Assembly: GCA_013314865.1 (NCBI GenBank)
Contig: JABUEV010000012.1
Span: forward strand, 1-14,026
DNA length: 14,026 nucleotides
Direction of reading: 5' to 3'
DNA from: Bacteroidales bacterium
GTDB taxonomy: Bacteria > Bacteroidota > Bacteroidia > Bacteroidales > VadinHA17
How positions within the stretch are numbered: position 1 is the first letter of the stretch; every line of letters begins with the position of its first letter. A program made the translations under genes and the position numbers. The notes under the pieces are model-generated. The model ran no database searches and was not told where the DNA came from. It saw only the letters and a list, made by a program, of their open reading frames with translations. Below are positions 8,142-10,789 of this stretch, piece after piece.

Positions 8142-8211
8142 CACACATATTATCAAATAATTAGATCTATCAGACTCCTCTCAGAGAATCTGACAAGTCC
8201 GTTTAAGGCTT

Positions 8212-8252
8212 AAACCAGACGTTATTAACAATTGTTGATAACGTCTGTTTAT
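8212..8252 (+). terminator. Probable eno terminator stem-loop
   Basis: A perfect 10-bp stem, CAGACGTTAT (8216-8225) with ATAACGTCTG (8238-8247), has a 12-base loop that itself contains CAATTG. One bulged base allows AAA (8212-8214) to pair with TTT (8248-8250). A short T-rich stretch TTTAT follows. It lies about 70 bases after the eno stop. The U-run is poor, so termination is likely but not certain. Two smaller hairpins precede it (8170-8193 and 8201-8215). Confidence 0.55.
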
Positions 8253-8267
8253 ATTCCGTGTACAATT

Positions 8268-8283
8268 ATAACCTTAAGGTTAT
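8268..8283. promoter_or_regulatory. 16-bp perfect palindrome, possible operator
   Basis: ATAACCTTAAGGTTAT at 8268-8283 equals its own reverse complement over all 16 bases. It abuts the TTTG -33 element of the promoter beginning at 8283, the place where a dimeric regulator or a curved-DNA signal could act. There is no loop, so it is more like a protein-binding dyad than a hairpin. No binding protein can be named from the sequence. Confidence 0.35.
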
Positions 8284-8313
8284 TTGTCGTAATATTATAT
8301 TTTTCTATATTTG
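8283..8313 (+). promoter_or_regulatory. Consensus Bacteroidota promoter for the structured RNA
   Basis: TTTG at 8283-8286 and TATATTTG at 8306-8313 are separated by 19 bases. This fits the Bacteroidota sigma factor consensus (TTTG at -33, TAnnTTTG at -7) exactly. Transcription should start about 6-8 bases downstream, near 8319-8321. No credible reading frame begins within the following 490 bases, which are full of inverted repeats instead, so the promoter most likely drives an RNA gene. Confidence 0.7.
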
Positions 8314-8318
8314 ATCTA

Positions 8319-8808
8319 TCAGGTGAGCGATAAAAGGTTGCTCAAATGATGTGGAAACAGAAAAGTTTCCTTAAGTGGGAACCACTCTGTTTCGGTCAGG
8401 CCTCCGGGCCTGCGCATCAGGAGAGCCGAAGCCTGACCAGGTAAACTTCGGTTTACGATGGTCAGTAAGTCGCAGAAGACCGGAAACGTTCCTTCAACGA
8501 CTGAGTCACAGGGCACAAGATAATAAACAGCTTCGGCTGTCGATATCTTAAACGTATAACTGTTCCTCCGGGAACTGAATACGGAGCCTGAATGACGCTT
8601 CGTCCCGGAATCCCGCCCCGGCGGGAGAAAGGACAGCCGGAAGATTCTGCTGTAACAGGCAGAATCCGAAAGCCACGGGCTGTGAAACCTGGTCATGTAT
8701 CAGGGTGACATGGCCGACCATAATAACAGTAACCTGACGCCGGATGCGGCTCCGGCTGCAACCGGTGAATGGGAACTACTCCACGGAATAGTTCCCATTA
8801 CTGTTTTT
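8319..8808 (+). ncRNA. Candidate stand-alone structured RNA of about 490 bases, family unknown
   Basis: The segment runs from the predicted start of a consensus promoter to a strong intrinsic terminator. It is dense in perfect inverted repeats: 8325-8330/8338-8343, 8353-8358/8365-8370, 8394-8401/8431-8438 (8 bp), 8441-8446/8451-8456 (cUUCGg loop), 8517-8522/8544-8549 around 8527-8531/8536-8540 (second cUUCGg loop), 8553-8557/8579-8583 around 8562-8566/8571-8575, 8611-8616/8621-8626, 8643-8650/8659-8666 (8 bp), 8691-8698/8708-8715 (8 bp with one G-U) and 8739-8744/8751-8756. TCAGGT at 8319-8324 can pair with ACCTGA at 8732-8737, closing a multi-branched fold. It appears more GC-rich than its flanks. 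No open frame looks coding. It lacks the RNase P (GGAAAGTCC, ACAGNRA) and tmRNA (TTCGA-type ends, tag frame) signatures. Function is unknown. Confidence 0.62.
8768..8808 (+). terminator. Strong intrinsic terminator of the structured RNA
   Basis: A perfect 11-bp stem, AATGGGAACTA (8768-8778) with TAGTTCCCATT (8789-8799), has a ten-base loop. It is followed by ACTG and then five T residues (8804-8808). The orientation of the T-run fits + strand transcription. It lies well before the UbiD gene start at 8900, so it separates the RNA gene from that gene. Confidence 0.8.
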
Positions 8809-8844
8809 ATAACCTGCCATCTGACTGTTATTGCTAATCCTCAG

Positions 8845-8874
8845 CTTGCCTTTCTGCTTTATTCCTTATCTTTA
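8845..8874 (+). promoter_or_regulatory. Possible promoter of the UbiD-family gene
   Basis: CTTG at 8845-8848 and TATCTTTA at 8867-8874, spaced by 18 bases, differ from TTTG / TAnnTTTG by one base each. The implied start is near 8881, giving a leader of about 20 bases before the ATG at 8900. This supports that start over the in-frame TTG at 8831. Confidence 0.42.
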
Positions 8875-8899
8875 TCCACAATCGTTACCCGTCTTGATT

Positions 8900-10789
8900 A
8901 TGGCTTACAATAGTCTGTCTGAATTTATTGCTGCTCTTGACCGTAATGGCGAACTTCACAGAGTTAAGGAATTTGTAAACCCGGTTCTTGAAATCACTGA
9001 AATAACTGAACGTGTTGCCAGAAACGGAGGTAAAGCACTTCTTTTTGAAAATAACGGTACACAATTTCCAGTGCTCACTAATGCATTCGGATCTGATAAA
9101 CGCATGGAACTTGCTCTCGGACATGATATCAGCCGTGATGCTGCCGGTATAATCAGTAAACTGTCGGAGAGAATCTCAGGCATCCGTCCGAAAAGAACTT
9201 TGAAAGCACTCTCAGACCTGCTGAAAATTGCTTCCTATATGCCCGTTCGTTCTTCAAAAAAAGGGTTGTGCCAACAGGTAATTCACCTGAATCCCGACCT
9301 CGGAATCCTACCTGTTCTGAAATGCCGGCCTTTTGACGGAGGACGTTTTCTGACTCTCCCCCTGGTTCATACTGTCCATCCGGATTCCGGAGCCGTAAAC
9401 CTGGGAATGTACAGAATGCAAATCATCGATAAACAAACTACTGCAATGCACTGGCAGCGCCATAAAACCGGTGCCAGTCATTTTGAAGCATGGGAAAAAA
9501 CCGGCAAAAAAATGCCTGTGGCAGTTGCGCTCGGAGGTGATCCGGTGTATACTTACGCAGCTACTGCCCCACTGCCTGAAAATGTTAATGAATATATACT
9601 GGCCGGCATCATCAGAAGAAAGAGGGTGAAACTTGTAAAGTGTCTTACAAACGATCTTTACGTTCCATACGACTGTGATATCGTAATAGAAGGATATGTT
9701 GACCCTTCAGAGGAAATGATTATGGAAGGACCGTTTGGTGATCATACAGGTTTCTACTCACTTCCTGACCTCTACCCGCTTTTTCATGTCACTTGTATTA
9801 CTCATGCCAGAAAAGCAGTCTACCCGGCAACTGTAGTGGGAATCCCTCCCCAGGAAGACGCCTGGTTTGCAAAAATTACTGAGAAACTGTTCCTGATGCC
9901 AATAAAGACTCTTTTACTGCCTGAAATAGAAGACCTTCATATGCCTCCTGCAGGCGTCGCCCATAACCTTGCTGTCGTGAGGATAAAAAAATCCTATCCC
10001 GGACAAGGAATGAAAGTGATAAACTCACTGTTTGGTGCCGGACAAATGATGTTTACAAAATACCTCATTGTTGTTAGCGGGGATATTGATATCAGAGACT
10101 ACCGGAAACTCTCAAAATATGTTCTTGAAAACACCGATTTCAGAAACCATATACTCTTTACCCGCGGTCCCCTTGATGCTCTCGATCATTCTTCAGGATC
10201 AGATTCATTCGGCGGAAAGGCAGGTATCGATGCAACTTTAAAATTGCCTGAAGAAACCTCAGAAACATACGGGAAATTTCATGAAACGGAAATGCAAGAT
10301 AAAGAATCTTTCGAAACGGAAGATTCAGTACTAATTATAAAGGATTTTCTTTCATATGGCATACCAGTTGCCTTCATCACTTTAAACATCTCCGGCCGAT
10401 TTGCCGACATAAATGAGGTTGTGCATCTTGTCATGAAAGGCAATTATCATAACAGGTATCGTCTTATCCTGATTGTGGATAAGAATGTCGACACGGAGGA
10501 TGCCTTTATGGTTGCCTGGCAGGTGCTTGGCAACTCCGACCCTTTGAGGGATCACGCATTTGCAGGACCTTCATGTCTGATTATCGACGGCAGGATAAAA
10601 GCAGAACTTTTCAGATATTCAGAGAGAAACTGGCCTGAAATAGTGTGCTCTGACCCTGCAACCATAAAAGCTGTAGATGAAAAATGGCATTCTCTGGGAT
10701 TCCGCGATTTTATAGAATCCCCCTCATTAAAATTCAGTAAGCTTGCCAGGGGAAACAGTGCGAAAGTGGATATTTCTGCCTCTGCCTGA
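8900..10789 (+). CDS. UbiD-family prenylated-FMN decarboxylase, possibly for menaquinone synthesis
   Basis: UbiD enzymes decarboxylate aromatic or unsaturated acids using prenylated FMN. The core spans about residues 1-455 of 629. It contains the cofactor and metal region VNLGMYRMQ (N167, R172), MHWQRHK, VALGGDP, and the catalytic segment MEGPFGDHTGFY with E276 and D281, matching the Glu and Asp of E. coli UbiD. The FGGKAGIDATLKLPEE motif closes the core. A further 170 residues follow, in which 520-563 (IVDKNVDTEDAF, then NSDPLRD) resembles the core segment 387-428, suggesting internal duplication. Bacteroidota enzymes of about this size are commonly annotated as menaquinone decarboxylases, so that role is likely but inferred. 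The ATG at 8900 begins the conserved N-terminus (MAYNSLSEFIAALDRNGEL). Its partner flavin prenyltransferase (UbiX) is not in the window. Confidence 0.88.
   Translation: MAYNSLSEFIAALDRNGELHRVKEFVNPVLEITEITERVARNGGKALLFENNGTQFPVLTNAFGSDKRMELALGHDISRDAAGIISKLSERISGIRPKRTLKALSDLLKIASYMPVRSSKKGLCQQVIHLNPDLGILPVLKCRPFDGGRFLTLPLVHTVHPDSGAVNLGMYRMQIIDKQTTAMHWQRHKTGASHFEAWEKTGKKMPVAVALGGDPVYTYAATAPLPENVNEYILAGIIRRKRVKLVKCLTNDLYVPYDCDIVIEGYVDPSEEMIMEGPFGDHTGFYSLPDLYPLFHVTCITHARKAVYPATVVGIPPQEDAWFAKITEKLFLMPIKTLLLPEIEDLHMPPAGVAHNLAVVRIKKSYPGQGMKVINSLFGAGQMMFTKYLIVVSGDIDIRDYRKLSKYVLENTDFRNHILFTRGPLDALDHSSGSDSFGGKAGIDATLKLPEETSETYGKFHETEMQDKESFETEDSVLIIKDFLSYGIPVAFITLNISGRFADINEVVHLVMKGNYHNRYRLILIVDKNVDTEDAFMVAWQVLGNSDPLRDHAFAGPSCLIIDGRIKAELFRYSERNWPEIVCSDPATIKAVDEKWHSLGFRDFIESPSLKFSKLARGNSAKVDISASA

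Follow-up and report, generated by a model that had tools for sequence, protein, structure and literature searches.

To our knowledge, bacteria have few large structured RNAs that are widely distributed, and what most of these do is still an open question. The window analyzed here, a stretch of 14,026 nucleotides from a Bacteroidales genome of the VadinHA17 lineage, raises the question of whether the DNA between eno and ubiD encodes a further RNA of this kind and, if so, what that RNA does. The original prediction was made from this single copy and proposed an independent, highly structured RNA gene without family assignment. The RNA gene has stood, and what proved too narrow was the extent of the story: the window holds one copy of a class-wide RNA family with its own array of sites upstream of the promoter.

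An RNA gene with its own promoter and terminator

The gene and the elements that frame it are as follows.

8283-8313, + strand: Bacteroidota-type promoter, with TTTG at 8283-8286 (-33 element) and TATATTTG at 8306-8313 (-7 element)
8317-8808, + strand: large structured RNA, with a predicted 5' end at 8317-8319 and a predicted 3' end in the T run 8804-8808
8768-8808, + strand: intrinsic terminator, a terminal hairpin opening with AAUGGGAACUA and closing with UAGUUCCCAUU, followed by a U run (from the sequence and its relatives)

The promoter follows what we take to be the Bacteroidota consensus, as had been proposed, and relatives retain it. Conservation was counted over 98 distinct copies of the RNA, window included (99 copies minus L181, the one spurious hit of our core finder). 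The -7 element is found as TAnnTTTG in 93 of them, and likewise in 93 its TTTG stops 5 or 6 nt ahead of the closing helix P1; given this fixed distance, the RNA should start with P1. At the other end, the strong terminator of the original prediction consists of an inverted repeat (8768-8799) and then TTTTT (8804-8808), and a loose hairpin-plus-T test was passed by all 98 copies. A perfect 16-bp palindrome, ATAACCTTAAGGTTAT, lies at 8268-8283 just 5' of the -33 element and is absent from the examined upstream regions of other family members.

The 493-nt sequence folds with -208.9 kcal/mol compared with a mean of -151.1 kcal/mol (s.d. 6.2) for shuffled sequences (z = -9.4), and none of 100 shuffles was as good. 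The UUCG tetraloops noticed earlier are there, in that UUCG-type loops are present in the sequence. An antisense open reading frame is broken by indels in all 43 homologues, which carry 201 indels that are not a multiple of three versus 15 that are, and codon mapping places extra stops in 18 of the 43; as judged from its homologues, this frame is not coding. On the sense strand there is a short ORF at 8695. The lack of an Rfam match, the strong covariation and the conserved promoter and terminator all uphold an independent gene of about 490 nt, and we regard its existence at 8317-8808 as practically certain.

A conserved core, variable bodies and an upstream array

Alignment of relatives resolves the RNA into a closing helix with a core loop, a 5' domain, a variable middle domain and a 3' domain, all on the + strand.

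8319-8324, +: P1, 5' strand UCAGGU, pairing with 8732-8737
8325-8335, +: core loop, 5' side, GAGCGAUAAAA, almost without variation across the 98 copies, in part through the search expression
8336-8339, +: P1b, 5' strand GGUU, pairing with GACC at 8716-8719
8340-8426, +: 5' domain, from covariation in 45 sequences
8340-8343/8423-8426, +: P3, preferred by relatives
8348-8353/8413-8418, +: P2
8354-8360/8387-8393, +: P2a, with an apical helix 8366-8370/8377-8381
8397-8402/8407-8412, +: P2b
8427-8432/8597-8602, +: P4, from covariation, closing the variable middle domain 8433-8596
8602-8719, +: 3' domain, from covariation in 45 sequences
8602-8605/8631-8634, +: P5, in which G8602 is able to pair in P4 or P5
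8612-8616/8621-8625, +: P5a
8636-8637/8672-8673, +: P6
8643-8650/8659-8666, +: P6a
8678-8683/8710-8715, +: P7
8716-8719, +: P1b, 3' strand
8720-8731, +: core loop, 3' side, AUAAUAACAGUA, followed by the P1 3' strand ACCUGA at 8732-8737
8738-8767, +: P8 hairpin

Two covariance models underlie the alignments, R1 for the 5' domain (built from family members) and R2 for the separate 3' domain. One locus with a run of N (L040) was removed before the 44-row alignment, of which alignments A1 and A2 give 41 and 39 rows with near-duplicates omitted. Alignments A3 and A4 were built from 43 loci: 13 of the order, 26 taken from the set of 45 family loci and four additional family loci; the loci found by R1 without an R2 match (L166 and L168) were omitted.

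Covariation, which the original prediction had proposed to test, gave a strong signal against shuffles, long-range helices included. Over both domains, 54 of 61 pairs are changed on both sides in 45 sequences, a count that ignores the relatedness of the sequences. In the 5' domain (window plus distant relatives, 45 sequences) 90.1% of cells are paired and 23 of 27 pairs show a change on both sides, and none of 500 shuffles reaches any of five measures. In the 3' domain, with P8 counted in, the corresponding values are 91.7% and 31 of 34 pairs, again with none of 500 shuffles. Slid controls pair 34-41% of cells in the 5' domain and 20-40% in the 3' domain. The alignments were fitted to the models and therefore lean towards the model structures; P2 and P3 are absent from the R1 structure, so these two helices are guarded against that bias. 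Compensatory covariation above shuffles, the mark of a structured noncoding RNA, is thus present in both domains.

The closing helix, put forward earlier as possible, is real: UCAGGU (8319-8324) and ACCUGA (8732-8737) are paired in 267 of 270 cells, 30 of them double-changed, in the 45 sequences (window included). This count is free of the upward bias of P1 counts in the 98-copy set, where selection required five of the six pairs. P4 is paired in 242 of 265 cells (27 double-changed). For the segment between them two pairings compete. The minimum-free-energy (MFE) fold is not the one favoured by relatives: it pairs GAGC 8325-8328 with GCUC 8340-8343, an alternative hairpin that is also part of model R1 and is formed in 38-44 of 44 sequences at its four central pairs. 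P3 pairs GCUC 8340-8343 with GAGC 8423-8426 in 41-44 of 44. We prefer P3 because it has more double changes; the relatives appear to favour it, not decisively. Both pairings are kept in most sequences, and a switch between them is possible.

Across the 98 copies the core consists of P1, the loop GAGVGAUAAAA / AAUAACNGUA and helix P1b, where GAGVGAUAAAA directly follows the P1 5' strand and AAUAACNGUA directly precedes the P1 3' strand. The invariance of this loop is partly set by the search expression, so that only positions left free carry information; the third core-loop base, one of those left free, is G in all 98 copies. The first three pairs of P1b are paired in 90, 91 and 93 of 98 copies and double-changed in 4, 33 and 7, the second pair being GC in 41, AU in 33 and GU in 17. 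The fourth pair (71 of 98 paired) does no better than its shuffles and is unsupported. The bodies enclosed by the core are variable, and the P1-closed length ranges from 212 to 579 nt. A natural short form is found in L160 (G361:C26), which carries a GCAA tetraloop on P4 in place of the middle domain and measures 301 nt from the R1 start to the R2 end. The core finder gave no hit in reversed sequence, and none either in named eno loci (816 kb) or viral loci (346 kb). L200 (G597) and L204 (G820) have a variant 3' core, AACAGUAG without AAUAAC.

Upstream of the promoter, the copies share a set of repeated sites.

8221-8265, + strand: upstream site array, from site counts over 98 copies
8221-8242: inverted pair GTTATTAACAATTGTTGATAAC, with halves TTATTAACA (8222-8230) and TGTTGATAA (8233-8241)
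8246-8254 and 8259-8265: further array sites, TGTTTATAT and TGTACAA

The sites are of the types TTATnAACA/TGTTnATAA, and the general layout is TTATTAACA, TGTTAATAAC and then as many as two additional TGTTnATA sites at a spacing of about 12 bp. In 92 of 98 copies one or more strict sites fall within 205 nt 5' of the promoter, an interval in which their density is 7.6 per kb, compared with 0.16 per kb for the remainder of the loci. Of the 94 copies with a correctly placed TTTG, 51 have the strict inverted pair. Control DNA of 1.62 Mb gave two counts of this pair, both at one palindromic place, and this sole place is the array of another copy of the RNA. The extent given in the original prediction, 8319-8808, agrees with the predicted ends of the RNA and falls short for the conserved unit, which extends upstream to the array from about 8221. 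In the window the inverted pair also serves as a terminator-like hairpin 3' of eno (8216-8247). We infer that the array is an operator, which would imply a dedicated regulator.

Distribution in the class Bacteroidia and comparison with known RNAs

The homologue search proposed with the original prediction found relatives in the family, the order and the class. By BLAST, the window RNA matches 76 of 117 genomes of its family, including 57 of 62 genomes of its genus (own genome included). Copies from the genus are mostly full length, with approximately 70-79% identity; many matches outside it are short, with E near 0.001, and unverified. The model R3, which does not include the 3' core, finds the RNA in 106 of 117 family genomes and all 15 genera at E 0.001, mostly with one copy each and with its weak hits partly verified: of eight weak members that were fetched, five have the promoter and both core halves and three fail the expression. 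Five of the 62 genomes in the window's genus have no match by BLAST or R3. Two of these five, G055 and G069, lack a copy despite completeness ratings of 98-100%; they are in hundreds of contigs, so that loss and assembly gap are indistinguishable.

Outside the family detection is patchy. R1 matched 16 of 393 genomes of the order, and R2 was present at matching spacing in 13 of the 15 order regions brought in by R1 (the exceptions are L166 and L168), as well as in four of four further family loci. On an order sample, R3 matched 32 of 247 genomes at E 0.001, of which 26 have the full core by expression, five fail it and one was not fetched. On a class sample of 395 genomes it matched 34 at E 0.01, counting that of the window. 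Of 35 non-self places in this sample, all of them fetched, 19 are the RNA (17 by expression and two, L200 and L204, by eye), and these lie in 18 genomes besides the window's and in six families. The remaining 16 are not this RNA, as judged by eye for L198, L207, L210, L211 and L212 and by expression for 11 of 16 further places. Altogether, 22 families of the class have a verified core; 16 of them belong to the order and 6 lie outside it.

By enolase, the carriers sit among Bacteroidales-like lineages, with carrier family f134 near Echinicola (87%); G597 is close to Echinicola and G820 has no clear placement. No copy was found in 80 named eno loci, where a single sub-threshold R2 hit occurred (L079, E 0.43). 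A 17-base core pattern run on 395 genomes sampled from the phylum gave three matches, namely the window and two places with neither promoter nor 3' core; the pattern is insensitive, having missed the carriers G597 and G763 within its own sample, and therefore says nothing firm on absence beyond the class. Two RNA hits lie close together in one genome at L156, L163, L233 and L238, and G123 carries three hits on separate contigs, two of them verified copies and one unverified.

None of this corresponds to a family in Rfam. At gathering score no model matches anywhere in the window, and none matches the relatives in 33 fetched loci, which answers the check that had been suggested; among 38 loci scanned, the single match is a tRNA in L198, a locus without a relative. 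At E up to 5, window 8200-8950 gives chance matches far below the cut-off (Six3os1_3 at 14.1 bits and PhotoRC-I at 12.3 bits), and L209 gives one chance match at E up to 3. The earlier claim that signatures of RNase P RNA, tmRNA, SRP RNA and introns are lacking agrees with these scans and with separate RNase P, SRP and tmRNA genes. Class A RNase P RNA is alike in size and in joining a conserved core to variable peripheral domains; unlike the RNA at 8317-8808, which RF00010 does not match, it has its own canonical gene in the window's genome (G000:C521:3959-4345), and a separate copy is found in 23 of 24 genomes tested. For tmRNA (RF00023), ARAGORN reports 0 genes in the window and there is no Rfam match; a separate gene exceeds the cut-off in 18 of 24 genomes, the window genome (G000, 89% complete) not among them. 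SRP RNA (RF00169) has no match in the window and a separate gene over the cut-off in 23 of 24 genomes. No group I or II intron model matches, and the RNA is intergenic, framed by a promoter and a terminator of its own.

Models of the large RNAs OLE, ROOL and GOLLD and of the raiA motif, all of which we take to be in Rfam 15, have no match in the window or in the relatives at 33 loci. OLE, ROOL and GOLLD are likewise large, highly structured, free-standing and poorly understood in function, and the present RNA is best read as resembling them in style, not as matched to them. ROOL and GOLLD are placed near tRNA islands and in prophages and phages in PMC12286853, whereas the contigs that carry the RNA described here are chromosomal, and the patterns used matched both core halves in no IMG/VR contig. 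The raiA motif (ModT) RNA is similarly widespread and structured; PMC12286853 gives it a biochemical role still being worked out and an occurrence in Bacillota and a further phylum. The L17 downstream element, listed for Lactobacillales and Listeria in a table of PMC2864571, shares with the RNA of some genera a location 3' of rplQ, and has no Rfam match here. In the open literature, at the level of titles and abstract openings, no description of the RNA was found. By the Rfam and literature tests this is hence a new RNA family.

What the RNA may do

We consider a trans-acting structural noncoding RNA, the window copy of a new class-wide family, to be the best explanation, with a probability of approximately 60%; action in trans, taken by itself, is very probable. 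A mechanism of docking and scaffolding, for which we would give even odds, could run as follows. A dedicated regulator would bind the upstream array and set the timing of RNA production, the RNA would accumulate as a stable particle, the core would dock a single conserved partner (either a protein or, in an oligomer, the same RNA) and the body would supply a lineage-specific architecture. The main argument for this mechanism is that the core is constant and the body is free.

The same division into a conserved core and optional peripheral domains, with its length range and the GCAA loop of L160, would suit a ribozyme, with the core loop as active site and the variable bodies as stabilizers at the periphery, an arrangement known from RNase P and group II introns. 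This is an unlikely reading, given that no ribozyme or intron model in Rfam matches and that promoter and terminator frame a free-standing transcript that is neither spliced nor self-cleaved.

A counterpart of 6S RNA, in which the A-rich internal loop by the closing helix would bind RNA polymerase and mimic an open promoter, is slightly less probable still. A closing helix and an open internal loop are common to both RNAs, and the RNA is free-standing and near universal in the family. RF00013 finds no 6S RNA in any of 24 genomes, a lack that is uninformative because the model also misses the Bacteroides control. Hence the earlier statement that no 6S signature is present holds as far as RF00013 has no match in the window, and this model is a weak test here. 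Against the reading, the window copy is approximately 2.6 times the 187-position model and is multibranched. 6S-Flavo (RF01685) is tabulated in PMC2864571.

A cis-regulatory leader of the following gene, ubiD in the window, is improbable. It would account for the genera nearest the window, where 41 of 45 loci have ubiD 3' of the RNA. Among the four exceptions, the sequence available 3' of the RNA is too short in L019 (0 nt) and L005 (188 nt), L034 ends in a weak match to the ubiD N terminus (E 0.025), and in L007 the 493 nt that follow the RNA contain no ubiD. The gene 5' of the RNA in these 45 loci is eno, in some rplQ. In L018, L026, L049 and L050 it is rplQ, not eno, that is directly 5' of the RNA, which indicates that eno was inserted or lost there. 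Beyond these genera the downstream gene class is not constant: neither eno nor ubiD, nor any other window protein, was found near the hit in eight weak-match loci from other genera of the family, and downstream ORFs vary outside the nearest genera. Outside the family, at least five loci (L156, L158, L162, the second copy of L163, and L165) have a next substantial downstream ORF that faces the RNA, as judged from ORFs and not from annotated genes, so the RNA is not a general cis leader; the terminator-like hairpin in every one of the 98 copies also speaks against it. The original placement between eno and ubiD is thus right for the window and not a general location among relatives. An added cis role is possible in the genera nearest the window, given how often ubiD follows there.

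That the RNA is part of a mobile or selfish element is just as improbable. Paired close hits in G382, G188, G154 and G271 and the patchy detection outside the family would fit it, but the RNA is mostly single copy with conserved synteny in the window's genus, and BLAST of the window RNA finds no match in phages and plasmids. In IMG/VR viral contigs three core patterns gave 0 matches, and the 3' core pattern alone gave 36 places, of which one has a loose GAGCGATAAAG upstream and none has a P1-flanked 5' core.

A replication origin, with the RNA as by-product or helper of initiation and TTATnAACA sites as DnaA boxes, can be set aside: the sites, in arrays of up to four, are similar to the DnaA box consensus TTATnCACA, but the half-site is TGTTnATA 124 times versus TGTGnATA 9 times, some genomes have two or more copies, and GC skew sampled on two long contigs keeps its sign at the RNA (in G397:C9 the sign changes near 700 kb with the RNA at 135 kb, and G040:C7 has no clear change).

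The most far-reaching reading would make the RNA an ancient machine of this bacterial class, the Bacteroidia, with a near-invariant core, lineage-built bodies and the same dedicated operator array at each copy. We hold this tentatively, as a possibility well short of the main reading. Such a machine could have been overlooked because the much-studied members of the group may lack the RNA. If it is true, the RNA machine is perhaps as old as the class itself and would be either a new ribozyme found in nature or a new particle, made of RNA alone or of RNA and protein. Near universality in the family and a core verified in so many families of one class point to importance by spread, and identifying the regulator of the array and the partner of the core would open the function of the RNA directly.
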